From NCBI GenBank assembly GCA_002729595.1, contig PBYL01000482.1, positions 1 to 64,000 on the forward strand: a stretch of DNA of 64,000 nucleotides. The letters are read 5' to 3'. The position numbers and the translations under genes were made by a program. Source of the stretch: Thalassovita sp. (lineage in GTDB: Bacteria > Bacteroidota > Bacteroidia > Cytophagales > Flammeovirgaceae). Shown here piece by piece: positions 10,457 through 27,496 of this stretch. The stretch's first letter is position 1. Every line of letters begins with the position of its first letter. The notes under the pieces are model-generated. The model was not told where the DNA came from. It saw only the letters and a list, made by a program, of their open reading frames with translations, and ran no database searches.

Positions 10457-10466
10457 TAGGTAATTG

Positions 10467-11237
10467 TTAGTACATCACTTTCGCGACACTTTTCATAGAT
10501 TGATTAGGAACAAAATTTATAATATTTGATTTAGGCTTTTGATGGAGCTGAAGATTTCTAGCTATCAATTCAAGGATTTCTTTTGTATGATCGAACAAGA
10601 AAAAATGCCCACCTGGAAACCAAACTACTTCCACTTTTTTACTGGTTTCTACTTGCCAATCTGTTATTTGATGGGTGGTAATGTTTTCATCAGTACCTAA
10701 CAGAAGCGTAATCGGCAAATTGAATGGCGGCGTTCTCTGGTAATTGAAATTTTTAATCACCTGAAAATCTGCCTGTAAAATTGGTTTAAGTATTTTAATC
10801 AGCCTTGGGCTATTCAAGATCTTTTCTGGTATACCTCCAATTTCTATAAGCTGGGTGATAAACTCTTGTTTATCAAGCACTTTTAAAATGGGTTCATCTT
10901 CTAAAGTCGAAGGCGCTTTACCACCAGATAGAAACAAATGCAGTGGCAAAGGAAGTCTACTTCGAGTAATCTTCTTAGTAAGCAAATAAGCCAATAAAGT
11001 ACCCATGCTGTGGCCATAAATGGCATAAGGTGGCTCTAAATAAGATTCTATTTGCTTGAGTATATCATCAATAATTTTATCCGGATTATAAATCAGTTGC
11101 TCAGTAAACCGAGTTCCTCTTCCTGGTAAATCAACAGGTATAATTTGTAAACTGGATGGAGCCATTTCTACAAATTGTTTGTAAGCAAACCTGCTTCCTC
11201 CTGCATATGGGAGGCATATTAAATTGGCTTTTTCCAT
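10467..11237 (-). CDS. Type II thioesterase (GrsT/TesA-like)
   Basis: This 256-residue alpha/beta hydrolase starts with the family-typical LICLPYAGGSRFAYKQF. Its triad is visible: S77 in GHSMG, D183 in LLGTDENI and H211 in FPGGHFFLFD. Type II thioesterases remove wrong or stalled acyl groups from carrier-protein phosphopantetheine arms; some release the finished chain. It is the last gene of the minus-strand operon containing an ACP, two ketosynthase-type proteins, reductase and dehydratase, so a proofreading role for that ACP is the natural reading. The preceding 186 bp contain several hairpins, so its expression may be tuned separately. Confidence 0.92.
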   Translation of the reverse strand: MEKANLICLPYAGGSRFAYKQFVEMAPSSLQIIPVDLPGRGTRFTEQLIYNPDKIIDDILKQIESYLEPPYAIYGHSMGTLLAYLLTKKITRSRLPLPLHLFLSGGKAPSTLEDEPILKVLDKQEFITQLIEIGGIPEKILNSPRLIKILKPILQADFQVIKNFNYQRTPPFNLPITLLLGTDENITTHQITDWQVETSKKVEVVWFPGGHFFLFDHTKEILELIARNLQLHQKPKSNIINFVPNQSMKSVAKVMY

Positions 11238-11274
11238 AAGTTAAAGATTGTGTAATTTAGAAATGTAATTTGAG

Positions 11275-11424
11275 AATCAATCCGCAGATAACACCACGGA
11301 TTGATTGTTTGAATTATAGCAGAAAAGCAAACGAGCTATAATACTACTTTATAAATCAGGTCTTCAATTAGTGAAATCACTAATAAATATCTTTATCAAA
11401 TCTGTTATCAACGTAAATGTTGAT
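11275..11424 (-). promoter_or_regulatory. Cluster of four intercistronic hairpins before the thioesterase gene
   Basis: Four inverted repeats fill the gap between the TonB receptor and the thioesterase: ATCAAC 11407-11412 with GTTGAT 11419-11424; ATTAGTGA 11367-11374 with TCACTAAT 11377-11384; ATTATAGC 11313-11320 with GCTATAAT 11335-11342; and AATCAATCCG 11275-11284 with CGGATTGATT 11297-11306. None has a clear U-tract. They may attenuate read-through or stabilise the upstream mRNA. Confidence 0.5.
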
Positions 11425-13610
11425 TAGAGTAAACCGTCAATAGTTTGTTGTCTTCTATCCATTCCCCATGTTAAGAATACGCCCATCATCACGAATCTTG
11501 GAGCCAAAGGAGTAACTTCTCTCCTAATTCCTGTATCTACATTTGAGTATTCGTAACCAAACACTTGCTTGCTACCTAGAAGATTGCTCATAGAAAGAAC
11601 TACAATGGCATTGGCTTTTCTAATCTTGGTAAGATATGCCAGCAAAAAGCTTACATTGTGGTAATTCTGCACTTTGTCTGAAAGGAACTCGCTATCTGGT
11701 CTGTTTGGGTTAAAATATGGACGACCAGAACTATAACTATAAGTTAAACCAGTGCTCAAAGAAAGTTCGGGGATATATCTTTTCATTACCAAAGAAGCAG
11801 TGTGGTTAGCGGCAAAAGTTGGTTGAGCCAATATCGGATAATCCATAAACTTTCTTTTCGTATCGAGATAGGAATAAGACACCCAATAATCCAGATTTCT
11901 TATGGTCTTTTTGTCTCTCCAAAACAACTCAAAACCTTTTGCATAACCATATCCACCATTGGTGACACTAGGAACAGTTTCTATTAGGTTATGATATTTT
12001 TTATAGAAAATTTCTGTACGAATCGTACGCAAACTACTTCTTTTCTGATAACTCACAATGTAATGGTCGCTTCTACCATAATCAAGTCCATCGTAATACA
12101 AATACTCTCTATTTGGCTTTTGGTAATACTGTCCGTAAGAAACTAAAAACTGCTCTTGTTCGCTCAGTAAATAGGCTAGAGAAAGCCTTGGAGCTATATT
12201 CATTTTTTGTAAGAGCGTAGAATATTCCATTCTTACACCGGCTCTAGCTTTCAAGTTCTTAACTAATTCAATATTACTTTCGATAAATACTGAAGAAAAA
12301 TTATCTGTAAAACCTGCTACAGAATCGCTTCCCGATTCCACATCTCTCCATGTTGAATTTTCTGCCACATGTTGTACTTCACCTCCAAAATTAAGCTCGA
12401 AGTAATTGCTGAAATATTTGGTTAAAACTGTTCTTGCTTGGTACAACTGCGAACCATATTTTACACCTTGTTTGCTGTGTATTTGGTCATCTCCTCTTAC
12501 TTCGGTATAGTACTTATCGGTATTGGTACTTGCAGAGAGTCCGGTGTTAATTTTGAGATCGTCTTTTAACCAATCGCTGTAAGTCAGGTTGGTGTAAATA
12601 TTCGAATTATCTACATCTGCAAAGTCTTTATTGCCCAGATAATCCAGACTATTTTCATTTAAAGAAACAGCGCTAGTTCCGTACATACCTAAAAATTTAA
12701 GCATGCCTGTTTTAGAAGTCTTGGTTCTAAAATTGACTGAGCCGTTCAAATATTCTGGCATTTTCACAAAGTCTTTCGACTGTTTTACCACATTGTAGTA
12801 AGGTGCCAAGTTCATATAATTTACGGAGGAAGTAAACGATGACTTTTCGTTCTTGGCAAGTAGGTTCAAGTCTGCGCTTACTCCTACTGATGTAACGGAA
12901 GCTTCTGTGGTGCTTTGCTCTGGTAAATCTTGTGTTTCGAGAATGAGTGTAGATGATAATGCTTGACCGTACAAAGCAGAATAACCACCACTGCTAAAAT
13001 GTGAGCCTTTAAATAAATCGGGAGAAAAACGCCCTCTTTGTGCCACACCTGGTGTGCCTCTTTGGTAAAAGTTATTTACCATCATTCCATCTACAAATAT
13101 CTTGGTCTCATCTCCTGTTCCACCTCTTACAAACAAGCCTTCTTGTTCGCCAATTTGCTGTGTGCCGGGCATGGTTCTTAATGCTGATGTAATGTCTGAA
13201 TTAGAACCTCCGGTGGTCATTATATCTATGGGTTTTAATACAGTGGCTCGGTTTTGATCACTTGCTTCAAAATAGCGTGATGAGGTAACAGTAGCTTCTG
13301 CGAGTTCTAAAAACATCTCTTCCATACTGCCAGAAACTTCTATCGGTTCTGAGCCAACTGTTATTTTTTGTTCACTGTCTTTAAATCCCATTAGGTGGAA
13401 AACCAGTGTTTGCTCTCCGGTTTTTCTTGTGGTGAAAGTGAAAAATCCGTCGGGTCTGGATGTGGTGCCATCGTAACTGTCTTTTATGAACACATTGGCA
13501 CCCACAATGGGATTGTTTCTTTTGTCTTTTACATACCCTTGAATGGTAGTCTGTGCGTACAAAATCGTACTTGTAAGCACAAATAAAATGTTAAGTAATA
13601 ATGCTTTCAT
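11424..13610 (-). CDS. TonB-dependent receptor with carboxypeptidase-like N-domain
   Basis: The 728-residue protein has a signal peptide (ends at about ILYAQ, residue 20). A CarboxypepD_reg-like domain follows (about 23-105: IQGYVKDKRNNPIVGANVFI). The plug at about 125-240 includes FVRGGTGDETKIFVDGMMVNN. A barrel ends in strand VMMGVFLTWGMD plus a short tail. It is embedded in the biosynthetic operon, between the arginase-like and thioesterase genes. It could take up the finished product, for example as a metal complex, or provide self-recognition at the outer membrane. No SusD partner is present, so a glycan role is less likely. Cargo is unknown. Confidence 0.87.
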   Translation of the reverse strand: MKALLLNILFVLTSTILYAQTTIQGYVKDKRNNPIVGANVFIKDSYDGTTSRPDGFFTFTTRKTGEQTLVFHLMGFKDSEQKITVGSEPIEVSGSMEEMFLELAEATVTSSRYFEASDQNRATVLKPIDIMTTGGSNSDITSALRTMPGTQQIGEQEGLFVRGGTGDETKIFVDGMMVNNFYQRGTPGVAQRGRFSPDLFKGSHFSSGGYSALYGQALSSTLILETQDLPEQSTTEASVTSVGVSADLNLLAKNEKSSFTSSVNYMNLAPYYNVVKQSKDFVKMPEYLNGSVNFRTKTSKTGMLKFLGMYGTSAVSLNENSLDYLGNKDFADVDNSNIYTNLTYSDWLKDDLKINTGLSASTNTDKYYTEVRGDDQIHSKQGVKYGSQLYQARTVLTKYFSNYFELNFGGEVQHVAENSTWRDVESGSDSVAGFTDNFSSVFIESNIELVKNLKARAGVRMEYSTLLQKMNIAPRLSLAYLLSEQEQFLVSYGQYYQKPNREYLYYDGLDYGRSDHYIVSYQKRSSLRTIRTEIFYKKYHNLIETVPSVTNGGYGYAKGFELFWRDKKTIRNLDYWVSYSYLDTKRKFMDYPILAQPTFAANHTASLVMKRYIPELSLSTGLTYSYSSGRPYFNPNRPDSEFLSDKVQNYHNVSFLLAYLTKIRKANAIVVLSMSNLLGSKQVFGYEYSNVDTGIRREVTPLAPRFVMMGVFLTWGMDRRQQTIDGLL

Positions 13611-13762
13611 GATTTATAAAGTTTAATAATCGCCTGTTAAGACTGTAATTGCCGATTGAATTCTGCTTTTAATGTTTTTGAGTGATAATTGATTTTTTGA
13701 TGACCGAAACAAAGCCATCACATTTGGTAGTGAAGGATAAAATAGTCGACTGTTAGTGAAAT

Positions 13763-15004
13763 TTAATTTTTGATGTTAATCAGGTTTAGTAGATAAAGAA
13801 TTGTTTGTATGGCGGTTTGCATCGTGAGGTTTTCCTTGTCGTAATCTGGGTTGGTTTCTACCAGATCTAGACCGACTATATTTTTGTTTTGCAACACAAC
13901 CGAAAATAATTGCTTTATCTCTTCGAAATTGAAACCACCTGGAACTGGCGTAGCGGTACCTGGAGCCACAGATGGATCAAGTACATCAATATCAAAAGTG
14001 ACATAGTAAGGAACATCTGTTGGCAAATCGAAAGTTTTTCCTGCTTCCATCGCTCTTTTTATATCACTAAACCAGTAGATTTTTTGTCGGGCTTCTGGTC
14101 TTTGCCCCATGTTAGAAATTCCCCTAATTCCAAACTGATAAATTTGATTGAATCGAGCATCTTCTAAGCATTTAGAAACAAAATTACCATGATGGTGTGT
14201 TTTGTTACGATGCGTTAAATAATCGTATCGCGATCCGTAGGTATCTGTGTGAGCATCAAAATGAATGACATGTAGATCGGAATAATTATTTAAGGCAGCT
14301 TTTATGAGTGGATAACTAATTGAATGATCGCCACCCAAAAAAAACAGAACTACTTTTTTACTGAAAAGCTCATTGGCAATGGTGAATATTTTGTCGTACA
14401 CAAAGTTTCCTTCTTCACTTGTATTGATAAAGATATTGCCATAATCCTTAATCAACTCTTGCTGAAACAAAGAAGCTAGGTTTGTGAAATCTGCCTCTCC
14501 ATCTAGAAATTTGAAGTCTTCTGCTGTTGCACTTTTATTCAAATTAATCTTATAATGCTTCACCATTTCGCGCAGCTTATATGGAAAATTTCTAGAACCT
14601 GTAGACTCATTATTTCCTTTACCAAATGGTACGCCTACAAAAGAAATTTGTGGTTCAGATGAATGATTTTGATCTAACAATAAATTGCCTGTATTAAAAA
14701 GCCTGTTGGCAACAGGAGTAACTGTAATAGTTGCTTCTTCCTGCATTTCAGTGTCGAGTATCAATCCTTTTGACAGAAGAAAAGCAATCGTTTTTTCTAA
14801 TAAGGCATCTTGCAAGTCAAAGTGTTTTTCAATCTCAGTAAACAAGCGAGGCTTTTTTACATATTCGAGTATATCGACTATCATCGGCCCTACTTCGAAC
14901 ATATTTCCGCTGATAATGCTGTAAACTTTGGCTTTGCCATTTGGCTGCCAGTCAATCTCTGTAAATGGAGATTTCATTAAGCTGGTGATGGCATAATCTA
15001 TCAT
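13763..15004 (-). CDS. Peptide-arginase-like ureohydrolase with N-terminal PqqD-like domain
   Basis: The 413-residue protein is about 100 residues longer than ordinary arginases and agmatinases. The C-terminal domain keeps the binuclear-metal ligands: H227 in GGDHS, D250, H252 and D254 in DAHTD, and D338 and D340 in DIDVLDP. Residues about 24-85 (AKVYSIISGNMFEVGPMIVD then a helical and wing-like part to KGLIL) look like a PqqD-type leader-binding domain (RRE). The known OspR-type peptide arginases convert Arg to ornithine in ribosomal peptides. The invariant D-R-C of the nine neighbouring precursors supplies such an Arg. Its ATG overlaps the M50 stop in ATGA. The ureohydrolase fold is certain; a peptide substrate is inference. 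Confidence 0.87.
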   Translation of the reverse strand: MIDYAITSLMKSPFTEIDWQPNGKAKVYSIISGNMFEVGPMIVDILEYVKKPRLFTEIEKHFDLQDALLEKTIAFLLSKGLILDTEMQEEATITVTPVANRLFNTGNLLLDQNHSSEPQISFVGVPFGKGNNESTGSRNFPYKLREMVKHYKINLNKSATAEDFKFLDGEADFTNLASLFQQELIKDYGNIFINTSEEGNFVYDKIFTIANELFSKKVVLFFLGGDHSISYPLIKAALNNYSDLHVIHFDAHTDTYGSRYDYLTHRNKTHHHGNFVSKCLEDARFNQIYQFGIRGISNMGQRPEARQKIYWFSDIKRAMEAGKTFDLPTDVPYYVTFDIDVLDPSVAPGTATPVPGGFNFEEIKQLFSVVLQNKNIVGLDLVETNPDYDKENLTMQTAIQTILYLLNLINIKN

Positions 15005-16257
15005 ACTTTTTGAGCTCTGATGTTACGAACATAATTGCGAGAAACCTTGGTGTACTTGTAAGAGAAGTAAGTAATTACTCCCAAAGAGAAAAACGTTTTG
15101 GCATAAAACTCAATCGCACATATTGAAAAATCCATCGCTGCTATCTGGCTGAAAACCAAGCCTAAATCCATAATAGATTGAGCAATTAGTATCACTATAA
15201 ACTTAGCTATGTAGATAAAAAATGCATACTTCAATACAGAGTAAACTATCAAAAATGGATTTTTTAAGTTGATGTTTTTTAAAGCACTTTCATTCAGATT
15301 AATCGGTGCTTTAGGGAATAAATACTTTATAGCTTTCAACAAGTAAACATTTGATTGCTTTCTCAGATTTGGCAGATTAAACAAGTCGCTGTAAATCCAG
15401 TAACCATCGAACCTGAAAAATGGATTGAGATTAATTACCACTGTGCCCATGTTTAATATGATGATGTACATCAACACTTCAATTACTGTACTGTCGGTTA
15501 AATAGCGAAGTACATAAAATATCACCGTGTTTATGAGCAATTGCATGTAAATACCACCTAAGTTAATAATGGTTCGTTTCCAGCGATTCAGCTTCCAAAC
15601 GCCTGTGATATCAGCATACAAAACAGGCAAGGCTAGATAAAATCCGAAGCCAATGTTCTTAGGTTTTACACCATACATATATGAAGCTGCGGCATGTCCC
15701 ATTTCATGGAAAAACAAAACCATAAAAGCCAGTGGATAAAAGAGCAAAACATAATTGGCATTTCTTAAACACTCGCCAGTTTGTGCAGCAGTAGTGGCTG
15801 TATTGGCACCCAAAAACTGATTTACATAAAAGTAATTTACAGAGGCAGATCCAATAAACAAGATGGTAAACACTACCGGATGAAATGCATATTTAAATAC
15901 TTCTAGAAATATTCTGAGATGTTCAAATTTTACCAATGTCCACTGACCTTGAATGCCTGTAAGCGGTAACTGCTTTTTCTGACCTTCTGGAAGTGCTTTT
16001 TCAAACAAACCCAGCGGCTTAATGTGCTGCTCTATAATTCCAAATAAAGTGTCTTTGGTAAATTTATATTGATTGTTGCTCCAAATATTGAGAGATTCTA
16101 GCATCTCATCTGTAGATTTTTTCTCGGAAAGAAACCTGATAATTAAATACACAAGCTCCCCTACGTAATATGGTTTGTCGTTTACAGTTAGTAAAAATTT
16201 CTTCTTACCAGAAGCATCGATTTCTTCTATGGTATAGGTGGCTGTTAACTCATACAT
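15001..16257 (-). CDS. M50-family membrane metalloprotease with PqqD-like N-domain
   Basis: The 418-residue polytopic protein contains the zinc motif H184-E-M-G-H188 in a membrane segment. The second-half motif LNPFFRFDGYW carries D284 as third ligand; both are typical of M50 site-2-type proteases found in peptide natural-product loci. Residues about 5-88 precede the membrane part and look like a PqqD-type winged-helix domain (KKFLLTVNDKPYYVGELVYL then a helical part to PLGLF). It lies directly after the last precursor gene and overlaps the arginase gene by four bases. A leader-removing or release role at the inner membrane is likely; no dedicated exporter gene is seen nearby. Confidence 0.85.
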   Translation of the reverse strand: MYELTATYTIEEIDASGKKKFLLTVNDKPYYVGELVYLIIRFLSEKKSTDEMLESLNIWSNNQYKFTKDTLFGIIEQHIKPLGLFEKALPEGQKKQLPLTGIQGQWTLVKFEHLRIFLEVFKYAFHPVVFTILFIGSASVNYFYVNQFLGANTATTAAQTGECLRNANYVLLFYPLAFMVLFFHEMGHAAASYMYGVKPKNIGFGFYLALPVLYADITGVWKLNRWKRTIINLGGIYMQLLINTVIFYVLRYLTDSTVIEVLMYIIILNMGTVVINLNPFFRFDGYWIYSDLFNLPNLRKQSNVYLLKAIKYLFPKAPINLNESALKNINLKNPFLIVYSVLKYAFFIYIAKFIVILIAQSIMDLGLVFSQIAAMDFSICAIEFYAKTFFSLGVITYFSYKYTKVSRNYVRNIRAQKV

Positions 16258-16462: not shown

Positions 16463-16573
16463 TTATTTTTCACTGTAGATGCAACGATCTGCATCTGCTG
16501 CAACGGCAGTCATTTCGTGTCTTTCTTCAAGTTCTACTATGTTTAATGAGTCTTTAAGTATTTCTTTTGACAT
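16463..16573 (-). CDS. Precursor peptide 1 (type A, 36 aa)
   Basis: It starts MSKEILKDSLNIVELEERHE and continues M-TAVAADADRCIYSEK. I choose the ATG at 16573; an upstream extension to 16684 crosses a spacer and has no counterpart in the other copies. The leader of about 21 residues is nearly identical in copies 1-8. The core holds one Thr, one Cys and one Arg in the invariant DRC. Its protein is identical to copy 2. It is the last precursor before the M50 gene. Family resemblance to a published RiPP was not recognised; Arg is the presumed site for the arginase-like enzyme. Confidence 0.9.
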   Translation of the reverse strand: MSKEILKDSLNIVELEERHEMTAVAADADRCIYSEK

Positions 16574-16610
16574 GGTGATAAAGTTTATAATTGAATGAAA
16601 ATTGAAAAAT

Positions 16611-16730: not shown

Positions 16731-16841
16731 TTATTTTTCGCTGTAGATGCAACGATCTGCGTCAGCTGCAACAGCAGTCATTTCGTGTCTTTCTTCCAAT
16801 TCTACGATGTTTAATGAGTCTTTTAAGATTTCTTTTGACAT
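16731..16841 (-). CDS. Precursor peptide 2 (type A, 36 aa)
   Basis: The translated product is identical to precursor 1 (leader ending ELEERHEM, core TAVAADADRCIYSEK), though the DNA differs at several codons. The start is the ATG at 16841, preceded in the transcript by the same CTATCACC-type context as its sisters. The synonymous differences argue that the protein sequence is under selection rather than being a very recent copy. The stop is TAA. It is followed in the transcript by structured spacer 1. Confidence 0.9.
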   Translation of the reverse strand: MSKEILKDSLNIVELEERHEMTAVAADADRCIYSEK

Positions 16842-17000: not shown

Positions 17001-17111
17001 TTATTTTTCGCTATAGATGCAACGGTCTGCATCAGCTGCAACAGCAGTCATTTCGTGTCTTTCTTCTAACTCTACAATGTTTAATGAATCTTTTAATACT
17101 TCTTTTGACAT
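17001..17111 (-). CDS. Precursor peptide 3 (type A, 36 aa)
   Basis: The leader differs from copies 1 and 2 only by Val for Ile at residue 5 (MSKEVLKDSL). The core TAVAADADRCIYSEK is unchanged. Stop TAA at 17001. It is separated from copy 4 by a short 69-bp spacer upstream and followed by a long structured spacer. The conserved DRC supplies Arg and Cys; Thr22 and Ser34 are the only hydroxy residues of the core. Confidence 0.9.
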   Translation of the reverse strand: MSKEVLKDSLNIVELEERHEMTAVAADADRCIYSEK

Positions 17112-17180: not shown

Positions 17181-17294
17181 TTATACTGCTTCTGTAATTG
17201 TGCAACGATCTGCTTCTGCTGCAATAGCAGTTAATTCGTGTCTTTCTTCTAATTCTACGATATTTAGTGCGTCTTTTAAGATTTCTTTTGACAT
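17181..17294 (-). CDS. Precursor peptide 4 (type B, 37 aa)
   Basis: It has leader changes S9 to A and M21 to L (ELEERHEL), and core TAIAAEADRCTITEAV. The stretch after DRC is CTITEAV in place of the CIYSEK tail of type A, giving two extra Thr. Like the other type B copies it is followed by a short spacer (69 bp) without the nested hairpins. Start ATG at 17294, stop TAA. Confidence 0.9.
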   Translation of the reverse strand: MSKEILKDALNIVELEERHELTAIAAEADRCTITEAV

Positions 17295-17455: not shown

Positions 17456-17566
17456 TTAAGCCTCTTTGTAAATGCAACGGTCAGCGTCAGCTGCAACAGC
17501 AGTCATTTCGTGTCTTTCTTCTAATTCTACAATGTTTAGCGCGTCTTTTAGGATTTCTTTTGACAT
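17456..17566 (-). CDS. Precursor peptide 5 (type A, 36 aa)
   Basis: The leader is as in copies 6 and 7 (MSKEILKDAL); the core TAVAADADRCIYKEA has no Ser or Thr after the Cys. The only hydroxy residue of the core is therefore Thr22, the only thiol Cys31. It is followed by a long structured spacer, as for all type A copies. Its start is exactly 190 bp from that of copy 6. Confidence 0.9.
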   Translation of the reverse strand: MSKEILKDALNIVELEERHEMTAVAADADRCIYKEA

Positions 17567-17639: not shown

Positions 17640-17756
17640 TTATACTAAGTCACCAGTAATGGTGCAACGATCTGCTTCTGCTGCTACAGCAGTCATTTCG
17701 TGTCTTTCTTCTAACTCTACAATGTTTAATGCGTCTTTTAGGATTTCTTTTGACAT
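17640..17756 (-). CDS. Precursor peptide 6 (type B, 38 aa)
   Basis: The leader ends ELEERHEM; the core is TAVAAEADRCTITGDLV. Compared with type A it has E for D at the sixth core residue and a CTITGDLV tail. Start ATG at 17756, stop TAA at 17640. It is a product of the 190-bp tandem duplication and is followed by a 73-bp spacer without the nested stems. Confidence 0.9.
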   Translation of the reverse strand: MSKEILKDALNIVELEERHEMTAVAAEADRCTITGDLV

Positions 17757-17829: not shown

Positions 17830-17946
17830 TTACACTAAGTCAGCACTAATAGTGCAACGATCTGCTTCTGCTGCTACTGCAGTCATTTCGTGTCTTTCTT
17901 CTAATTCTACAATGTTTAATGCGTCTTTTAAGATTTCTTTTGACAT
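17830..17946 (-). CDS. Precursor peptide 7 (type B, 38 aa)
   Basis: It is nearly identical to precursor 6; the tail is CTISADLV rather than CTITGDLV, so variation is confined to the residues after DRC. Start ATG at 17946, stop TAA at 17830. The spacer that follows is almost the same as that after copy 6, marking recent duplication. Confidence 0.9.
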   Translation of the reverse strand: MSKEILKDALNIVELEERHEMTAVAAEADRCTISADLV

Positions 17947-18106: not shown

Positions 18107-18217
18107 TTAAGCTTCTTTGTAGATGCAACGGTCGCCATCTGCAGCAACTGCTGTCATTTCGTGTCTTTCTTCTAATTCTACAATGTTCAATGCGTCTTTA
18201 AGTACTTCTTTTGACAT
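18107..18217 (-). CDS. Precursor peptide 8 (type A, 36 aa)
   Basis: The leader begins MSKEVLKDAL. The core TAVAADGDRCIYKEA has Gly for Ala directly before the invariant DRC. Start ATG at 18217, stop TAA at 18107. It is followed by a long structured spacer and preceded by the short 55-bp spacer after precursor 9. Confidence 0.9.
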   Translation of the reverse strand: MSKEVLKDALNIVELEERHEMTAVAADGDRCIYKEA

Positions 18218-18272: not shown

Positions 18273-18410
18273 TTAGATATCTACTTTGCCTGAACCAGTA
18301 TCTTTGCAGCGGTCTATATCAACCGATGCTGCTGTTAGTTCAAACCTGCTTTCAAGTTCTACAATTGAAAGTGCATCTTTAAGCTCTCCACTTATTAGTT
18401 TCTTATTCAT
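18273..18410 (-). CDS. Precursor peptide 9 (divergent, 45 aa)
   Basis: This is the first precursor after the ACP gene. The start is MNKKLISGEL, then KDALSIVELESRFEL and core TAASVDIDRCKDTGSGKVDI. It keeps the IVELE-R-E leader signature, the T-A at the core start and the DRC. It differs at most other positions and has a longer Thr/Ser/Gly-containing tail. It shows which residues are required by the shared enzymes. It may be the ancestral copy or yield a distinct product. Stop TAA at 18273. Confidence 0.87.
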   Translation of the reverse strand: MNKKLISGELKDALSIVELESRFELTAASVDIDRCKDTGSGKVDI

Positions 18411-20201: not shown

Positions 20202-20262
20202 AGCGTTTAATATTTGATGATTGATTATGAAATTGAATAAAGGTGTTTTACAATCATCTGCA

Positions 20263-21012
20263 TTATACGCCGATGCCACCGTCTATGGTAATCTCCTGCC
20301 CGATGATGTATTGAGGGGCTGCACTTGCTAGATAACTAACCAAATTTGCTACTTCTATAGAAGTTCCCATTCTTTTAAGCGGGCTTCTCGACATGCGCTC
20401 TTCAAAATAACCATTGTTTAGGTTTGAAGTCATATCTGTCTCGATTAAGCCAGGAGAAACACAGTTTATAATTACTCCTGAGCGAGCTACTTCTTTGGTA
20501 AGTGCTTTAGAGAATGAAACAATCGCTGCTTTTGAAGCTGAATAAGCTGATTGTCCTGGATTGCCTTTTTGGCCTGATAGGGATGTGATATTGATAATTA
20601 CTCCACGCTTCTGGCGAATCATCATCGGTAGTACATTGCGACAGGTGTTTACCACACTAGCCACATTGGTTTTTACTACCTTCCACCATTCATCGTCTGT
20701 AGTGAACATAAACGGGCGGCTATTTCCAAGAATTCCTGCATTGTTTACTACTACATCAATCTTCGGAAATTCTTTTTTGATATTTTTAAATAAGCTGGCT
20801 ACTTCTTTACTATCGCTCATATCGCACTTAAGTGCTTTTGCTGTCGGTAAATTGTGTTCTGCGATTTCATTTACGAGTGACTCAGCCATTTCTACCTTGC
20901 TTAAGTAGGTAAATATTACTCTGTAACCTTGATGAGCAAGTTCTAGTGAGATAGCTCTACCTATTCCCCGAGTGCCACCAGTTACAAGGGCTATTTTTTG
21001 ATGTGCTTCCAT
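20263..21012 (-). CDS. 3-oxoacyl-ACP reductase, FabG-like SDR
   Basis: The 249-residue classical SDR has nucleotide loop TGGTRGIGRA (11-20), NNAG (90-93), and catalytic S144 with Y157-x-x-x-K161 in SAYSASKAA. It ends in the family-typical IIGQEITIDGGIGV. It would reduce the beta-keto group made by the adjacent ketosynthase with NADPH. Its place between the TPR gene and the KS gene, and the dehydratase in the same operon, give a full reduce-and-dehydrate cycle. No enoyl reductase is present, so an unsaturated or polyene chain is the likely product. Confidence 0.93.
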   Translation of the reverse strand: MEAHQKIALVTGGTRGIGRAISLELAHQGYRVIFTYLSKVEMAESLVNEIAEHNLPTAKALKCDMSDSKEVASLFKNIKKEFPKIDVVVNNAGILGNSRPFMFTTDDEWWKVVKTNVASVVNTCRNVLPMMIRQKRGVIINITSLSGQKGNPGQSAYSASKAAIVSFSKALTKEVARSGVIINCVSPGLIETDMTSNLNNGYFEERMSRSPLKRMGTSIEVANLVSYLASAAPQYIIGQEITIDGGIGV

Positions 21013-21080: not shown

Positions 21081-21743
21081 TTAATCTTCTTCAACTTGAT
21101 CTTTATAGCGACCTAAAGCGTGCTCTAGTGGTGCTCTTCCCCAGTGAGGCTTGATAGTGTTTTCGTCTGCGATATTTTCTGCAAAAAGTCTGGCTGAGTT
21201 ATCGAATAATCTCTTTGCAGCTTCAGGGCCACCACCAAAATCAGCAGGTACATTGTACAAGTTTTGAGCTAAGAGATAGTAAGCTCTTGGATTGTTTTTG
21301 TCTATCGCACAAGCTTCTTTAAGGTAAGAGTTAGATTTAGATACGAATTTCATTCCACGACCCATTACATCTACTTTAATTCTACTGCTATAAGAAAGCG
21401 CTTTTAAGCATAAAATCTCTGAGTTATTCGGTGAAAGCGAATCAGCAACTTCGAGATACTTGTTTGCCTTTTGAGCAAGCACATCTATATCGTTGATGTC
21501 TTTGGTAACCATTGCTTGGTTAATCTTGCTGAAAGCTGCGTAGTAGTAAGGCAACCATTTGTCTTTTTCAGCGAGTGCAATTCTTTCAAAGTTATTTGCC
21601 ATCGTTAAGAAAGTCGCTTCTGTAACTGCCGTATCTAATATTTGAACATTCTCTAGCACAGCAGCTTCGTAAGCATTGTCTTGAGCAAGTACAACAGCAT
21701 AAGTAAATGCCAATGTTAATAGGGTGAAAATCAGTTTTTTCAT
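21081..21743 (-). CDS. Secreted TPR-like protein of unknown role
   Basis: The 220-residue protein has a signal peptide (MKKLIFTLLTLAFTYAVVLAQ). Helical repeats resembling tetratricopeptides follow, for example KANKYLEVADSLSPNNSEILCLKALS and KNNPRAYYLLAQNLYN, then ADFGGGPEAAKRLFDNSARLF. No catalytic motif is seen. It would sit in the periplasm or outer-membrane space. In the middle of the operon it may scaffold export or assembly of the lipidated product, a role otherwise missing because no transporter is encoded. That role is inference only. Confidence 0.75.
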   Translation of the reverse strand: MKKLIFTLLTLAFTYAVVLAQDNAYEAAVLENVQILDTAVTEATFLTMANNFERIALAEKDKWLPYYYAAFSKINQAMVTKDINDIDVLAQKANKYLEVADSLSPNNSEILCLKALSYSSRIKVDVMGRGMKFVSKSNSYLKEACAIDKNNPRAYYLLAQNLYNVPADFGGGPEAAKRLFDNSARLFAENIADENTIKPHWGRAPLEHALGRYKDQVEED

Positions 21744-21797
21744 GATAATAAAGTTTTAAAAGATTGAATGAATGATTTATAAAGTATTAGTGGTTGA

Positions 21798-23042
21798 TTA
21801 ATATTTCTTGAGAACCATACTGGTGGTATTACCTCCCAAATGGATGGAGTTTACAATAGCATAGTTGATTTTATCTTTTACCTCTATACTTTCTTCTGGT
21901 ATAATAATCTGCTTATTTACACCTTCCAGTACTTGATTTGGAAAGCCTGTGCCTGGTACCATTTCGTATTTTACACCCAGTGCTCCTGTAGCCAGCGAAA
22001 GTGTTGCTGATGCTCCCAGTGTTTCACCAGTTTTAGATTTAATAGTGGTATAGTAAACCTCTTCTTTTTTACACACATTTTCGATGGCTTTCGCTTCGTA
22101 GCTTTTTACCTGCCAAGGCAAGCAAGAACCGCCAACTACCAAATCCACATCGTTTTCGCTAATTCCTGTGTGTTGGATGGAATCTAACATAACAGAAGCC
22201 AAGTCGGTATGGGAGCGCTCTGTTAGCAAGTGATTTCCAATACCATCGCATCCGGTAGAATAGCCCAATACTTCTGCGTAGATAGGTGCATTTCTTTCGA
22301 GTGCGTGCTCCAGTTTTTCCATTACTACAAAGGCAGAACCTTCACCAAGAATAAGTTTTCCTTCCTCTTCAGGAGTGCCCAATTTTTCTTTGAGTGAAAC
22401 ATATTCTCCCTTTTCATTTTTAGGTGATAGTACTTTATCACTCAATACATAATTAAAAAAAGTAGAATCTCTTAGTTCATCAAAACCGCCACAGATCATA
22501 ACATCTGCTTTGTCGTCTTGCAGCAGATCGAAACCATAAGCTGCGCTGTTTTCTCCCAAAAGCATAGAGCTTGGGCCTCTTAATTTAAAAAAGCGAGTTA
22601 CATCTCCCAGAGCACAATTGGCCACTGTTTTAGTAAAGTTCAGCGGACTTACCTTATCTGCACCTCTTTCATACAGTTTAGTCAAGTAACTCTCGACCGC
22701 TGCATTAGCAGCTATATCTGTATTTAAGATCAACCCTAATCTTTCTGGTGAGAATGAAGGTAGGTCTAGCTGTGCGTCATCAATCGCCAAATGACAGCCC
22801 AGCATAGCCAATTGCGAATACCTCAGGGGAAATGGAAAACGTAAACCAGCTAAATAATTCTTTATTGAAAACTCTGTGCAAACGCCACAGTATTGTTTTT
22901 CTATTTCTTGGTATTCCCACTTTTCTCTAAGCGAGATACCAGATAAGTTTTGAGTAATTTTATCGATAAACGAAGCTTTTCCCACACCCATGCTAGACAC
23001 CGTTCCAACTCCGGTAATTACAATTCTTTGTTGATTTTCCAT
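21798..23042 (-). CDS. Ketosynthase-like protein lacking catalytic Cys (KS-beta / chain-length-factor type)
   Basis: The 414-residue protein has the overall thiolase fold of FabF (IVITGVGTVSSMGVGKASF at the start, KSKTGETLGASATLSLATGAL near the end). The active-site segment reads RGPSSMLLGENSAAYGF, placing N165 where Cys should be. The NAHGT His is replaced (VVGGSCLPWQ) and the KSMTGH His is Glu (KSKTGE). Such degenerate partners act as chain-length factors with an active KS. Together with the KS at 18990-20201 it implies a type II PKS or aryl-polyene-like chain. A structural or decarboxylating role is possible. Confidence 0.85.
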   Translation of the reverse strand: MENQQRIVITGVGTVSSMGVGKASFIDKITQNLSGISLREKWEYQEIEKQYCGVCTEFSIKNYLAGLRFPFPLRYSQLAMLGCHLAIDDAQLDLPSFSPERLGLILNTDIAANAAVESYLTKLYERGADKVSPLNFTKTVANCALGDVTRFFKLRGPSSMLLGENSAAYGFDLLQDDKADVMICGGFDELRDSTFFNYVLSDKVLSPKNEKGEYVSLKEKLGTPEEEGKLILGEGSAFVVMEKLEHALERNAPIYAEVLGYSTGCDGIGNHLLTERSHTDLASVMLDSIQHTGISENDVDLVVGGSCLPWQVKSYEAKAIENVCKKEEVYYTTIKSKTGETLGASATLSLATGALGVKYEMVPGTGFPNQVLEGVNKQIIIPEESIEVKDKINYAIVNSIHLGGNTTSMVLKKY

Positions 23043-23084
23043 GATGTTATTTTTTTGATTGTTGAATAAAACAGGCTCTTATTA

Positions 23085-23555
23085 TCAGGAGATATGAACA
23101 GTTACGCTACCTTTTGCTGCTACTTTGCCTTCGCAAATTACTTTGGCATCAAACTCAGAGAAACCCATTAGTTTGTGTTTAAACTTTACTTCTATTTCAA
23201 GTTTGCTCTCTGGCCTCACCTCTTTGTGAAAAGATACATTTTTAATTTTGATAGCTCTGCCAGAAGCTGGTTTCTGCGGAACCTGAACTTGTTCGGAATT
23301 GCCAAAGTTGAGCGCTTCTAATCTGCCGTATAAGCCGCAGGTTTGGAACATCATCTCTACCAGAATTACACCTGGCAAAAGTGGGTAGCCCGGAAAATGA
23401 CCTTGGAAAAAGATTTCATCTTTGCCAATCTCTTTATTGGCTGTGAGTGATTCACCAAACTTAAAGTCAACGATATTATCTACCAATAAAAATGGCGGGC
23501 GATGTGGCAATAGCGTTTCTGGTTTTGGGTAATCAATTTTCGTTTCGGTAATCAT
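23085..23555 (-). CDS. 3-hydroxyacyl-ACP dehydratase, FabZ-like hot-dog protein
   Basis: The 156-residue protein has LLPHRPPFLLVD (15-26), the motif FFQGHFPGYPLLPGVILVEMMFQ (split here as FFQGHFPGYPLLPG and VILVEMMFQ) with H53 and E67 as the expected catalytic pair, and the hot-dog end strand GKVAAKGSVTVHIS. It would dehydrate beta-hydroxyacyl-ACP to the trans-2-enoyl form. Without an enoyl reductase, repeated cycles would leave conjugated double bonds. It is shorter than typical DH domains of PKS and close to FabZ length. Confidence 0.92.
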   Translation of the reverse strand: MITETKIDYPKPETLLPHRPPFLLVDNIVDFKFGESLTANKEIGKDEIFFQGHFPGYPLLPGVILVEMMFQTCGLYGRLEALNFGNSEQVQVPQKPASGRAIKIKNVSFHKEVRPESKLEIEVKFKHKLMGFSEFDAKVICEGKVAAKGSVTVHIS

Positions 23556-23597
23556 GATTTTGAGTTTTAAAATGTTGATGTTTTGGGTTGATCTTTC

Positions 23598-24251
23598 TTA
23601 AAATTCTTTGACTAATTGGACTAAATCCACCTCTTTCGTTTCGATATCCACCGACTTCTGGTGAAAAGCGATACAACACACATAATCGGTATGAATATCT
23701 AGTTGATGGATGTAATAAGTATTTTGACCTTGATAGTAAATATTTTCTGGGCAGTAAATCTCTGTAAAAGCCATTCCGAGTCCGTTTCCATCTACTTTTC
23801 CTATTGCTTCTTTCTTTGCCCAAACAGTAATCTTGCTATGATTATCCATATCTTGATCTTCTAATGGATGGAGAAAAAAACTCGATGCTCTTTTACTAAT
23901 TTTTACCACATGTTGTATATCTATTCCCACTTTACACTGGGGAGCAATGGCGCAAATAATGATATCTTTTGAGTGCGAGATATTAAAATCTATCTGTAAG
24001 TTTTGAAAAAATGGTCTGCCATTTCCAGAATAATATATCTCTTGTAAAGCATCCTCATAATAGCCCATGTCTTTTAAACCATGTGATAACAGCAACTTGC
24101 CCGTGAGTGATAATGCTCTTGCTCTTTCTGCTTTATACATAGACAGACGCTTCTTTAGCACTGGAGGAAAACGCTCCATAATGCTTGTTACCAGCTCTGC
24201 AGAGGGTAACTGATCTATCTTTGTATAATATACCTGACAACTTTTGAGCAT
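23598..24251 (-). CDS. 4'-phosphopantetheinyl transferase, Sfp type
   Basis: The 217-residue protein has the PPTase motifs NISHSKD (90-96), VGID at 108-111 and W144-x-x-K147-E148-A-I-G-K152. D111 and E148 are magnesium ligands. The usual Glu after GIDI is Gln here (GIDIQ, Q113), a tolerated change in some members. It would attach phosphopantetheine to S48 of the ACP in this operon. It ends 42 bp before the FabZ-like gene. Encoding its own PPTase makes the module self-contained, as is common in transferred secondary-metabolite clusters. Confidence 0.88.
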   Translation of the reverse strand: MLKSCQVYYTKIDQLPSAELVTSIMERFPPVLKKRLSMYKAERARALSLTGKLLLSHGLKDMGYYEDALQEIYYSGNGRPFFQNLQIDFNISHSKDIIICAIAPQCKVGIDIQHVVKISKRASSFFLHPLEDQDMDNHSKITVWAKKEAIGKVDGNGLGMAFTEIYCPENIYYQGQNTYYIHQLDIHTDYVCCIAFHQKSVDIETKEVDLVQLVKEF

Positions 24252-24273
24252 AGTTAATTAGTTTATCAATTGC

Positions 24274-25698
24274 CTATTTTGCGACTTTAACAGAATTGGC
24301 TTTTAGGAACTCAATTTTCACTTTTTCCCATGCATTAAACTGGAAGTGCTCGCACAGTAACAAGTAGACTGATTCGTGCGTGAGCTTACAAGCTGGCATG
24401 GTGACTATAGAAATAATGGTTTCGCCATTTTTTACATCTACTATGGCTTTTAGCACTTTTCCGGTGCTGTAGATTGCATTGGCTATTTCTTGAAACCAGA
24501 TGCTGCGACCTTCCACTTCAATCTGGTTTTTACTTCTGCCTAACACAAAGAGTTTTCCTGTTTCAGAGAAGTAAGCCATGTCTTCTGTGAGTATATTTTG
24601 TTGTGGCTTTACATGAGGAGGCAACTCATGCATATATCCATTCATTACCGAAGGACTCTCAATTAACACTCTGCCAATTTCGTTCGATTTGGTATCATTC
24701 CCTTTGGCATCCAACACCCTCATTTTCACACCTTCTAGTGGATAACCAACTGAATCGATTTCAGGATCTGTTGGCGTTTCAACTTTGTAAGTACTCACTC
24801 TTGGTCCAGCCTCTGCAAGTCCGTATGTTTTTATAAATGGACAGCTAAAAACATTCATGGCTCTTTGTAGAGACTCTTTTTCTATGTGATTCCCACCTAC
24901 TGTAATAAACCTCAGCGAGCTAAAATCACCTGTAAAAAATCCTTTCTCCTGCATGTAATTGATCTGCCTAATCATAGGTGGCACAGTAAACAAAGAGGTT
25001 GCTTTACTAGCAGGAATCAATCTTGGAATTTGGGTAATGGCAAACCTTGCATCTGCCAAAACAATTTTACTACCTACATACAAATGGCTGAGAAACTGTG
25101 CGATCAAACCATATGAATAGTTCATGGGTAAAGCCATTATGGTAGTATCATCTGGGCGAATCCCGATCGATTTTACATTGGCTTTGATGTTAGCAATGGT
25201 GCCAACTGCACTCAGTTTTATCACCTTGCTAATGCTTGTACTTCCAGAACTAGTCACGAGCAAAGCGGTATCTTCTAAGTACTTATGAGGATTATAGTGA
25301 CCGTTTTTAAAGAGAAAGCTGATATTGAAAATAGATTCGCATTTCAGCTTTCTTTCAATCAGAGATTTGTAAAGTGCCGAACTCGTATTTTTTTCGTGAG
25401 CCAGATAGCCATAGCAGTTCAATTTTTCAAAATCGATGGCATTTTCTTGTAATTCATTTACAATAAGCGGAATGGCTTCGAGCTGTAAAAGTGCTAAGAA
25501 TATAATAGATAGTTCAATAGAATTCGGGAACGAGAGCACAATGATTTTTCCCTTATCAATTCCCTGCTTTTCTAGCTCTTTTGCATAGAGGTTTACTTTT
25601 GCCCATAGCTCGCTATAAGTAATACCTTTTCCGCTTTCGATGAGTGCAACTGAGTTACTACAATTCTCTTTGAGAATATTAATGATGGAATGATTCAT
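24274..25698 (-). CDS. AMP-dependent acyl/aryl-acid ligase
   Basis: The 474-residue adenylate-forming enzyme has the Ser/Thr/Gly-rich loop LLVTSSGSTSISKVIKL (about 154-170), ITVGGNH, KTYGLAEAGPRVSTY, and hinge LGRSKNQIEVEGRSIWF. The C-terminus ends NSVKVAK, where the catalytic Lys is expected. Enzymes of this type load a carboxylic acid on CoA or carrier protein, often the starter unit of type II or aryl-polyene chains. The substrate pocket cannot be read reliably by eye. It is preceded by the acyltransferase and followed by the PPTase in the same operon. Confidence 0.88.
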   Translation of the reverse strand: MNHSIINILKENCSNSVALIESGKGITYSELWAKVNLYAKELEKQGIDKGKIIVLSFPNSIELSIIFLALLQLEAIPLIVNELQENAIDFEKLNCYGYLAHEKNTSSALYKSLIERKLKCESIFNISFLFKNGHYNPHKYLEDTALLVTSSGSTSISKVIKLSAVGTIANIKANVKSIGIRPDDTTIMALPMNYSYGLIAQFLSHLYVGSKIVLADARFAITQIPRLIPASKATSLFTVPPMIRQINYMQEKGFFTGDFSSLRFITVGGNHIEKESLQRAMNVFSCPFIKTYGLAEAGPRVSTYKVETPTDPEIDSVGYPLEGVKMRVLDAKGNDTKSNEIGRVLIESPSVMNGYMHELPPHVKPQQNILTEDMAYFSETGKLFVLGRSKNQIEVEGRSIWFQEIANAIYSTGKVLKAIVDVKNGETIISIVTMPACKLTHESVYLLLCEHFQFNAWEKVKIEFLKANSVKVAK

Positions 25699-25734
25699 AT
25701 TTTTATCATAGCAAAGGTTTAGAAAATTTGGGTT

Positions 25735-26907
25735 TTAAGACGCCAATTTAGATTGAATTAAAACCCGTTTTTCTATCAGGTTTTGTAAGAGTGAGTCAGA
25801 GAGATTTGCAGCAATGCTATACTCAGGATTCACGGTTTCTCGCTTATCCAAAAAGCTTAATAACTCTTCGTTAATTTCGTAGGCACTATAGCTTGCCCTG
25901 TTAAACAGAAAACAGTTTTCGTCTAGTTTAAAAAGGCTATACTCCGTTTTATTGAAGACTAAATTTTCCACAGCTCCGCCATTATCTGTTGTATTTTCTA
26001 TACTGATTACACGCTTTATATTATCCCAATCGAGGTATTTGTGCACATAAAGCCAACCCTCCCATTGGTCGTAATAAGTAAGCAGTTTTTCTTCGAGTAT
26101 CTTATACAAATAAGAGGTAACTGTGTAGCAATAATCTTCTTTTCCTTTGGTCCACTCAAGTGGATTAATCGGATCATAAAATTTGAGTTTTACGTCTTGT
26201 TCATGGTCATCATACCAGGAGATCACCGGAATAACAGGCACTTTTGCGGCATAAGAAAGGGTGGTAATTCCCTTTCTCGAATAGAGGTTTTGATGTAAAA
26301 AAGGAATATTCAAAAATTGAGGGTCTTTTTTATAGATACCTCCTACTCCGGTGTTACCATCCAGGTATGCTACAACTGATCTGCCAGATCGAATGTGTTT
26401 AAATAGTCGGATTGCAATGTCGTGTTGTTCTGCTGCTTCGAGCCCAAAATAGGACGATTGGTTAAAGTTGGCATGTATTGAGTTTACAATTTCAGTAACT
26501 TTTATGTGCTGCTTATTATAGGTGTTTTGGTCTACCAAAAGTACAAAGTCTATGCCTGCACTGGCCAATACCCCTATAATTGACCGGTAAGAACCCAAAT
26601 GATAAGTACAGTATATAGCTGGTGTTTGTTGTTCTAGACAACTGGTGTCGCCTATGCGGTTGATGTTGTTTATAAGGTCAGGATACGACGGTTCTGTCAC
26701 CAATCGTGAGTTGTTGTAAAGGATGTTATAGTATATGTTTTCATGCGATGATACTGGAACAGTTGGCAAAAAGTTGGATAAATTTGCTGATAAAAAATTG
26801 AAATCTTTTAGTTGCTTTTCTTGCTTCTTACGCTGTTCGCGTTTGGTAATATGCTCTTTGAGACGATGATAGTTTTGTTTGTAAAGTTGGCTGCTGATAG
26901 TTTCCAT
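25735..26907 (-). CDS. LpxL/HtrB-like acyltransferase with C-terminal PqqD-like domain
   Basis: The 390-residue protein has the lysophospholipid/lipid A acyltransferase layout: TYHLGSYRS (H103 as the catalytic His of an H-x4-[D/E]-like motif, here ending in Arg), then YLDGNTGVGG, and KGITTLSYAAKVPVIPVISW. Residues about 310-388 (FKLDENCFLFNRASYSAYEI then a helical and wing-like part to EKRVLIQ) look like a PqqD-type leader-binding domain. No transmembrane anchor is visible at the start. An acyltransferase carrying a RiPP leader reader should move the ACP-made chain to the peptide, perhaps to ornithine formed by the arginase-like enzyme. That substrate is inference. Confidence 0.8.
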   Translation of the reverse strand: METISSQLYKQNYHRLKEHITKREQRKKQEKQLKDFNFLSANLSNFLPTVPVSSHENIYYNILYNNSRLVTEPSYPDLINNINRIGDTSCLEQQTPAIYCTYHLGSYRSIIGVLASAGIDFVLLVDQNTYNKQHIKVTEIVNSIHANFNQSSYFGLEAAEQHDIAIRLFKHIRSGRSVVAYLDGNTGVGGIYKKDPQFLNIPFLHQNLYSRKGITTLSYAAKVPVIPVISWYDDHEQDVKLKFYDPINPLEWTKGKEDYCYTVTSYLYKILEEKLLTYYDQWEGWLYVHKYLDWDNIKRVISIENTTDNGGAVENLVFNKTEYSLFKLDENCFLFNRASYSAYEINEELLSFLDKRETVNPEYSIAANLSDSLLQNLIEKRVLIQSKLAS

Positions 26908-26974
26908 AGGGGTATTTTTTAGTCGTTGATAATTGAAATAGATAGCGATTGATGTTTGTGTTAGGTTGAGTTTA

Positions 26975-27496
26975 TTAGCTAAATGTGCAAGTGCTCAAAT
27001 AATCTTTAGAGATATCGATTGAAACAGATTGTTTTAAAGCTTGTAACTGAACTACAAATCTGCTTTTACCATTTTCTCTTACTAGTATGCCTTCTGTTCC
27101 TGCAAACTGGCCTTTGGTAATTGTTACTCTGTCGCCAATGTGGTAGTTATCTGCGGTAGAAGATACTACTGGGTTTCCACAAAGTACTTTTTTGATTGAT
27201 TCAATCTCTTCTTCAGGAATTGAAACTGGTGAACCTCCAAAAGAAATGAAGTTTACTAAACCTCTCACTTTCATTAAATTGAATCTCTCTTGCGAGCTAG
27301 TTTTTACAAATACATAGTTTGGAAAAAGCGGTGTTTCAATTTCTTTTTTGCGATCGCTCCATTGGCGAACTTCTTTTTGCATGGGAAGAAATGTTTCGTA
27401 ACCCAATTCATTTACTTTGTTTCTAACTTGCTTTTCAGCTTGCGGATATGTGTAAACAACATACCAAGACGGATTTAAATGAGCGTTTTTTTTCAT
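26975..27496 (-). CDS. Specialised NusG paralog (UpxY/LoaP-like antiterminator)
   Basis: I start at ATG 27496 (MKKNAHLNPSWYVVYTYPQAEKQV), giving 173 residues; the longer frame to 27547 adds a basic stretch without family similarity. It has the NGN domain (WYVVYTYPQAEKQVRNKVN; PLFPNYVFVK; VRGLVNFISFGGSP) and a KOW motif (GDRVTITKGQFAGTEGILV). Paralogs at the head of long secondary-metabolite or capsule operons (UpxY, LoaP) stop premature termination across them. Here it is the first gene of a 17-kb operon with strong hairpins in the precursor spacers. Confidence 0.92.
   Translation of the reverse strand: MKKNAHLNPSWYVVYTYPQAEKQVRNKVNELGYETFLPMQKEVRQWSDRKKEIETPLFPNYVFVKTSSQERFNLMKVRGLVNFISFGGSPVSIPEEEIESIKKVLCGNPVVSSTADNYHIGDRVTITKGQFAGTEGILVRENGKSRFVVQLQALKQSVSIDISKDYLSTCTFS

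Follow-up and report, generated by a model that had tools for sequence, protein, structure and literature searches.

Gene content and organisation of the locus

The subject of this analysis is a predicted operon for a lipidated ribosomally synthesized and post-translationally modified peptide (RiPP) in a 64,000-nucleotide stretch of DNA, hereafter the window, from Thalassovita sp. (Bacteroidota; contig PBYL01000482.1 of assembly GCA_002729595.1, positions 1 to 64,000). The operon is a co-directional run of genes on the minus strand (10467-27547; Table 1). In the order of transcription it encodes a NusG paralogue, an acyltransferase, an AMP-ligase, a phosphopantetheinyl transferase (PPTase), the dehydratase FabZ, a ketosynthase-like partner protein, a TPR-like protein, the ketoreductase FabG, a ketosynthase (KS) and an acyl carrier protein (ACP); nine short precursors follow, and then an M50 protease, an arginase, a TonB-receptor-like protein and a type II thioesterase. 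An earlier note on this DNA had described a minus-strand run between a NusG-like gene and a terminal hairpin, and this description holds: every gene named there is present and intact. Its count of fifteen genes has to be corrected to 14 with the antiterminator included, 13 lying between the NusG-like gene and the hairpin, plus the nine precursors.

The likely start of the NusG paralogue is at 27496, and the gene occupies the same position in a related cluster, L003 (L-numbers denote loci and G-numbers genomes that were compared with the window). The top NCBIfam model for the AMP-ligase is AmcH, with a score under its cut-off. The hairpin past the last gene has no clear U-run, which is why a scan for consensus terminators overlooked it; an Rfam search of the window gave no match.

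Table 1. Features of the operon and of the neighbouring cassette, with the supporting evidence or the C-terminal sequence.
Feature	Position	Strand	Evidence or sequence
UpxY/RfaH-type NusG paralogue, predicted antiterminator for the long operon	26975..27547	-	NF033644 159.8 bits, cut-off 100
LPLAT-fold acyltransferase (LpxL/LpxM/PatA-like) with C-terminal beta-beta-beta-alpha-alpha domain	25735..26907	-	AlphaFold2 model, Foldseek, alignment
AMP-dependent acyl ligase, predicted starter-acid loader of the ACP	24274..25698	-	PF00501 E 1.4e-49
4'-phosphopantetheinyl transferase	23598..24251	-	PF01648
FabZ/FabA-like dehydratase	23085..23555	-	PF07977 E 1.5e-22
Ketosynthase-like partner without Cys-His-His, chain-length-factor-like	21798..23042	-	Pfam/NCBIfam support, alignment
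TPR-like protein with signal peptide, in all clusters	21081..21743	-	Pfam, cluster comparison
FabG-like ketoreductase	20263..21012	-	PF13561/PF00106
Ketosynthase, Cys-His-His intact	18990..20279 (ATG at 20201 more likely start)	-	Pfam/NCBIfam, alignment
Acyl carrier protein	18610..18897	-	PF00550 20.5 bits, just under cut-off 20.8
Precursor A1	18273..18410	-	...DIDRCKDTGSGKVDI
Precursor A2	18107..18217	-	...DGDRCIYKEA
Precursor A3	17830..17946	-	...EADRCTISADLV
Precursor A4	17640..17756	-	...EADRCTITGDLV
Precursor A5	17456..17566	-	...DADRCIYKEA
Precursor A6	17181..17294	-	...EADRCTITEAV
Precursor A7	17001..17111	-	...DADRCIYSEK
Precursor A8	16731..16841	-	...DADRCIYSEK
Precursor A9	16463..16573	-	...DADRCIYSEK
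M50 intramembrane metalloprotease, PqqD/RRE-like N-terminus; predicted leader peptidase	15001..16257	-	PF02163; HEMGH
PF00491 ureohydrolase with RRE-like N-terminal domain; predicted peptide arginase	13763..15004	-	PF00491 E 7.9e-55
TonB-dependent-receptor-like outer membrane protein	11424..13610	-	PF13715, PF07715
Type II thioesterase	10467..11237	-	PF00975 E 6.4e-37
Stable hairpin past the last gene, ACCTCTCTGATA...TATCAGAGAGGT	about 10420-10460	-	Minimum free energy z = -5.3 versus shuffles
LanB, class I lanthipeptide cassette beside the operon	27916-31065	+	
LytTR/histidine kinase, class I lanthipeptide cassette	31077-32809	-	
Cys-free lant_leader_L1a precursor	33201-33332	+	NF038153, class I leader model; MKTQNSISKKIVLRKRTITKLDTVKSVNKKQSTTITTTSTISF
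LanC, class I lanthipeptide cassette	33416-34558	+	

The precursor peptides

The nine precursors are 36-45 residues long, have a leader in common (xxLxIVELEERxExT) and all contain D-R-C. Among A2-A9, 185 codon differences are synonymous and 63 non-synonymous, and third positions hold 211 of the 294 base changes. Because the substitutions are of this coding type, and because 42 homologues were found in eight other clusters, the nine can be regarded as real, i.e. as genuine coding sequences, and the earlier claim of nine ribosomal precursors with a common leader is borne out. A longer, GTG-started open reading frame (ORF) reaching 16684 was rejected as the boundary of the A9 gene.

In the 51 precursors from nine clusters, the window included, the leader is constant and the C-termini are variable, they are under coding constraint and maturation enzymes are encoded alongside, which are the features by which a RiPP is recognised. 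The spacing between a conserved Thr and the Cys is 9 in 51 of 51. The operon precursors that were run against Pfam and NCBIfam matched no model, and in particular no NHLP, Nif11 or class I lanthipeptide leader. The D-R-C motif, which had been called invariant, is so within the window; across the clusters only R-C stays fixed, namely in those with an arginase.

Distribution and unity of the gene cluster

The acyltransferase and the Cys-less KS partner were each searched for in 390 genomes of the order, and the partner also in 222 genomes of a second family, the source of most matches. The partner was found in 5 of the 390 and in 8 of the 222 genomes, four being common to both, which makes nine in total with the window. 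All nine clusters hold precursors, ACP, KS, FabG, ligase and PPTase as well as the TPR protein, the acyltransferase, the M50 protein and the TonB protein. FabZ was recovered in eight of the nine, the exception being G1244, where ORF picking let a neighbour's longer frame overlap some of the sequence in which FabZ would lie. In G1228, G1227 and G1244 the cluster comparison gave no thioesterase, and no further search for it was made. In G1227 two overlapping frames (L146, about 17296-18497 of the stitched region) make up the acyltransferase gene, a sign of either a frameshift or an assembly error. A tenth cluster, L003, in a metagenome-assembled genome of the Cyclobacteriaceae, is cut by the contig end.

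The gene order in the window is unlike that in the other clusters. In 8/9 complete clusters the precursor array comes immediately after the ACP gene, and in 9/9 it is followed by the M50 gene, the arginase gene where present, and then the TonB gene. In G319 the RiPP block adjoins the synthase block, each being ordered separately, and the ACP remains in the RiPP block. Outside the clusters no close match of the KS partner (E <= 1e-60) was found in a phylum sample of 395 genomes; that search yielded general FabF-like proteins alone (about 157-185 bits versus 685). The two halves occur together in all nine complete clusters, and in the genomes searched the KS partner never occurs without the RiPP half. 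Such a comparison of genomes leaves little doubt that the type II genes and the RiPP genes form one pathway, as the earlier note had supposed.

The arginase and its site

In the eight arginase-bearing clusters an Arg stands directly before the Cys in every one of the 48 precursors. In G313, whose cluster lacks the enzyme, this residue is Val in all three precursors (reading SAVC), no Arg follows the leader, and the complete, single-contig genome contains no arginase of this family anywhere. Since G313 is nested among arginase carriers in a tree of four concatenated proteins (support 1.0), the loss of the enzyme and that of the Arg fall on the same branch. On account of this covariation (48/48 versus 0/3) the arginase almost certainly acts on the Arg that precedes the Cys, a site that comparison of the clusters identifies, and this residue is very probably converted to Orn. 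The covariation thus supports the conversion proposed in the earlier note.

PF00491 is the sole family matched by the arginase; the binuclear metal site is complete (motifs GGDHS, DAHTD and FDIDVLDP), and the model has the agmatinase fold. The suggestion that the enzyme is of the OspR type has to be dropped: OspR-type peptide arginases belong to PF12640, whereas the window enzyme is agmatinase/KgrD-like, PF00491 having a precedent in the enteropeptin arginase KgrD (PMC12703449). At its N-terminus the enzyme has about 100 additional residues, modelled as a domain of three or four strands and then three helices; the profile of this domain is similar to that of the M50 N-terminus (hhalign 70% probability).

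The type II synthase

In the alignment the KS keeps Cys-His-His and its partner is without all three, in line with the intact KS and the Cys-less partner of the earlier note; in 6/6 aligned partners Glu stands in place of the second His (GET). The best matches of the window KS are FabF-type enzymes and PDB 9s5h (4.7e-78), followed by the ishigamide KS 6kxd (1e-56). A literature search on 9s5h found nothing relevant.

The gene set of a highly reducing type II polyketide synthase is complete, i.e. KS, partner, ketoreductase, dehydratase and ACP, and the operon has no enoyl reductase. Systems of this type with a ketoreductase and a dehydratase and no enoyl reductase are expected to give unsaturated chains. 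As FabG and FabZ are present and an enoyl reductase is absent from the operon, it is a reasonable inference that the chain is unsaturated, or a polyene. A CurA-like ene reductase (PF16884) lies 3' of the TonB gene in 6/9 clusters (e.g. L151:7026-8066), and one also lies beside the RiPP genes of G254. Where this gene adjoins, partial reduction of the chain is possible, and FabI of the host could act on the chain in trans.

The acyltransferase and the protease

The acyltransferase sequence has no Pfam or NCBIfam match and no sequence match in the PDB. Its AlphaFold2 model (mean pLDDT 86) resembles LpxM (5kn7; Foldseek E 1.1e-11, target TM 0.60) and PatA (TM 0.75, E ~1e-11), which agrees with the LpxL-like identity proposed earlier. 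The LPLAT fold is established at the level of the model, and the chemistry is predicted. All 17 aligned sequences keep the active-site His, and the motif reads H-x-G-x-Y-R/Q/N. The C-terminal tail has an RRE/PqqD-like topology in the model and likely reads the leader; none of the putative RRE domains matched PqqD in Pfam.

A pattern scan of genome contigs found only one relative of the acyltransferase, and whole-genome searches yielded far more. Of the 40 matches in the order, about 30 are distant paralogues. In one family many genomes have, next to RNase G, a conserved paralogue (about 30% identity; L041:4956-6071 and similar); these proteins have the same C-terminal domain, regulator genes are also near, and no RiPP genes were seen.

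The M50 protein scores below the cut-offs of both the daptide protease model NF041824 (109.1 bits, cut-off 300) and the YydH/LiaK model (44 bits, cut-off 225). It is a member of neither family; what it shares with those proteases is the predicted maturation of a RiPP by an M50 intramembrane protease. A class-wide search with it returned mostly ordinary M50 proteases under 38 bits.

Related loci with other acyl sources

A second locus of G1142 (L160:9097-14051; contig 393) has four precursors, an M50 protein, an arginase, an LPLAT-like acyltransferase and a histidine kinase/LytTR pair, with no type II genes on the contig. Its precursors read ..IVELEERLEMAAA[E/D]RC.NRC.GND.., with two R-C motifs each and a core without the conserved Thr. 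As L160 lacks the type II genes, the acyltransferase goes with the RiPP half, and the type II genes would be the acyl supply. According to the earlier note, the occurrence of either half without the other would mark the two as unrelated; no type II set was found without the RiPP half, and L160 does have the RiPP half alone.

The precursors of G254 (..VLELEERLEMVQTAAASAPVISCCLDG, two copies) and of G356 (..MVELEERLEMVQLQLSEEAAASLLCDFGSVEVQVAE) have no Lys or Arg after the leader. The synthase adjacent to the G254 genes includes a flexirubin-type tyrosine ammonia-lyase, FlxA (NF053541, 825 bits, cut-off 700), and for this reason an aryl polyene is indicated there. G356 has a synthase set related to that of G254, with the same leader, M50 protein and LPLAT enzyme, and both genomes have grasp-with-spasm-like maturases (TIGR04192, just under cut-off). 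In G254 the leader, M50 protein, acyltransferase, maturases and aryl-polyene-type synthase come together in an apparent hybrid of aryl polyene and RiPP (L047:13905-17078 and L063).

The same leader, M50 protein and LPLAT enzyme are found without an accompanying acyl source in G004 (precursor ..LQLEERLEMVYVAAAAACCGGCGNGSCDNKLK) and L160, and G463 and G004 couple the leader with radical SAM proteins. Other orders of the class have LEER-type precursors too, with M50-type and radical SAM genes nearby (L114:8224-8822 in G463; L113:12743-12910 in G577); the G577 locus has a probable cytochrome P450 too.

On comparison of these loci the acyl source looks exchangeable between clusters. We tentatively suggest that LEER leader, M50 protease and an LPLAT enzyme without the catalytic acid of HX4(D/E) mark a broad group of Bacteroidota lipidated RiPPs, in which varied chains would be placed on Cys and the change of Arg to Orn would be optional. 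The chains may then be type II polyenes, aryl polyenes or acyl groups of primary metabolism, i.e. we may, with similar reserve, be looking at a modular route to peptide-polyene hybrids.

Proposed pathway and the acceptor residue

For the chain chemistry, the acyl transfer to the peptide, the acceptor, the cleavage site and the function of the operon we infer the following route. The AMP-ligase would load a starter onto the ACP, and the KS pair with FabG and FabZ would elongate it to an unsaturated chain. The M50 protein, the arginase and probably the acyltransferase would bind the leader via small winged-helix (RRE-like) domains, and the arginase would make Orn of the Arg that precedes the Cys. 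From the ACP the acyltransferase would hand the chain over to the peptide, where the side chain of the invariant Cys is the most likely recipient and may in turn give the chain up to the amine of the neighbouring Orn; direct transfer to Orn or to a new N-terminus is less likely. The M50 protease would then cleave within the Ala-rich stretch. On balance we think it probable that the operon makes a lipidated ribosomal peptide by this route, and we are fairly confident that the acyl group ends on the peptide. The choice of Cys as the first acceptor is tentative.

Of the side-chain nucleophiles, Cys alone is common to all cores of the leader family that were compared, including those of G254 and G356. 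The earlier note had favoured Orn as the site of the chain. As a rule this finds no support: G313 has lost arginase and Arg and yet keeps the synthase and the acyltransferase, so Orn cannot be the sole acceptor, and the G254 and G356 precursors speak against the rule as well. Orn is thus probably not the general acceptor. A shift of the chain from the S of Cys to the N of the adjacent Orn would reconcile the two acceptors and give the Orn a purpose, which is speculation.

Several findings weigh against the proposed pathway. The concordance of Arg and arginase is exact, and the loss behind it is one evolutionary event. The cores of G313 end in Lys, which could replace Orn as acceptor. The acid of the HX4(D/E) motif is replaced by Arg, Gln, Asn or Ser in all 18 acyltransferase sequences compared, by Arg in the window. 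The thioesterase and the TonB receptor would equally fit a free small molecule. As to the leader-reading acyltransferase of the earlier note, the predicted topology of the tail fits, but its profile links to the M50 and arginase domains are not significant (3% and 0.6%), and paralogues with the same tail stand at loci whose surroundings, on inspection, hold no RiPP genes.

A selidamide-like product would carry the chain on the side-chain amine of the new Orn and, where the arginase is missing, on the C-terminal Lys. Selidamides are acylated on Orn or Lys by GNATs (PMC12703449, PMC13060382), the Orn site is invariant in the eight arginase clusters, and 3/3 G313 precursors end in Lys. However, this Lys varies in position (+6 to +8 after the Cys) whereas the Arg is fixed at -1, the cores of G254 and G356 retain the LPLAT enzyme without a Lys or Arg, and the operon is without a GNAT, so we regard such a product as unlikely. 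We equally doubt that the protease frees the core first and that the chain is then placed on the new N-terminal amine, as in lipolanthines and goadvionins. N-terminal acylation is known for microvionin, goadvionins and lipoavitides (PMC13060382) and would explain why no single side chain other than Cys is needed, but the known cases rely on GNATs, and the LPLAT tail, if it binds the leader, implies that acylation precedes leader removal.

Comparison with known systems

Lipidated RiPPs, dedicated lipid synthases and Orn in RiPPs are each already known. Like the predicted pathway, those of lipoavitides, goadvionins and lipolanthines (microvionin) join a ribosomal peptide to a chain from a dedicated fatty acid or polyketide synthase of the same cluster, and non-modular fatty acid synthases are cited for N-terminal acylation in PMC13060382 (its ref. 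35). These products differ in that they are class III lanthipeptides, with the lipid at the N-terminus and GNATs as acyltransferases (PMC13060382); the window has no LanKC in the operon or its flanks, Pfam and NCBIfam found no GNAT among the operon proteins, the acyltransferase has the LPLAT fold and the leader is different. In the selidamides (phaeornamide, kamptornamide, nostolysamides) a single pathway provides both the change of Arg to Orn and a fatty acyl group, as is predicted for the window. They use PF12640 arginases, GNATs and NHLP/Nif11-type leaders, and no dedicated synthase is noted in the sources consulted, whereas the window combines a type II synthase with a PF00491 enzyme that has an extra N-terminal domain, an LPLAT enzyme and a short LEER leader.

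Enteropeptins have a PF00491 peptide arginase (KgrD) for an Arg that adjoins a modified Cys, as is predicted for the window; they differ in having a radical SAM thiomorpholine, N-methylation and no acyl genes, while the window operon has no radical SAM gene. Aryl polyene, flexirubin and ishigamide systems also have a KS with an inactive partner, ketoreductase, dehydratase, ACP, ligase and thioesterase and no enoyl reductase. In contrast to these, the window system is tied to ribosomal precursors, and its KS is nearer to 9s5h and FabF-type enzymes than to 6kxd. The DAG-RiPPs (dyb cluster) are lipidated ribosomal peptides of Bacteroidota with the lipid on Cys (PMC12636315), but they use the general lipoprotein pathway and a signal peptide, whereas the window has a dedicated synthase and acyltransferase.

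Searches of the open-access literature, subscription papers lying outside them, turned up no description of the gene combination, of the acyltransferase with the LPLAT fold, of the leader family or of an exchange of acyl sources. This is likely a new family of lipidated RiPPs. If so, it would add a new acyltransferase fold to RiPP lipidation, which otherwise depends on GNATs or the lipoprotein pathway in the cases found, and it would bring together genetically encoded peptides and synthases of the highly reducing type II kind. The natural loss of Arg and arginase and the exchange of acyl sources are ready-made experiments on which residue each enzyme modifies, and the natural variation of the clusters suggests that the parts can be recombined. 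Several relatives belong to genomes that are complete or nearly so, which may bring the products within reach.

The neighbouring lanthipeptide cassette

Beside the operon lies a class I lanthipeptide cassette (LanB, LytTR/histidine kinase and LanC, 27916-34558), which recurs next to L003 and G254 and within the G328 cluster. G356 has relatives of LanB and of the LytTR/histidine kinase pair, and counterparts of the cassette precursor are present in L003, G328, G254 and G356. Judging from its genes, the cassette is taken as a second, co-located RiPP, a pathway shared with the operon being only a possibility.

The operon precursors would themselves be lanthipeptides if LanB and LanC dehydrated the conserved Thr and joined it to the Cys nine residues on. 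The invariant Thr-Cys spacing, 9 in 51/51, would fit this, and LanB-like genes stand beside or inside 8/10 clusters. Nevertheless, the cassette has its own precursor, no LanB-like gene is near the G319 or G313 clusters, the LanB-like proteins inside operons have no elimination domain and LanC is missing in most such clusters; moreover, the core of L160 has lost the Thr and the operon precursors have no class I leader. This makes the lanthipeptide explanation very improbable. A chance juxtaposition of a type II pigment or fatty acid cluster and a RiPP cluster is hardly credible and, on genome comparison, largely refuted: L160 does carry precursors, M50, arginase and LPLAT enzyme without type II genes, but in the 390 and 222 genomes the type II genes were never seen without the RiPP half, the ACP stays beside the precursors despite the differences in gene order, and the acyltransferase keeps to the RiPP half even where the synthase is missing.

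Five clusters have within the operon a protein of about 870 residues with the LanB N-terminal domain alone (PF04738; L150:13648-16284, with counterparts in G229, G1228, G1227 and G1244). These LanB-like proteins could be PEARL-like aminoacyl ligases that add a residue to the peptide. In the window, the presence of LanC with a Thr-rich, Cys-free substrate beside an operon for single-Cys peptides raises the question of a thioether across peptides.

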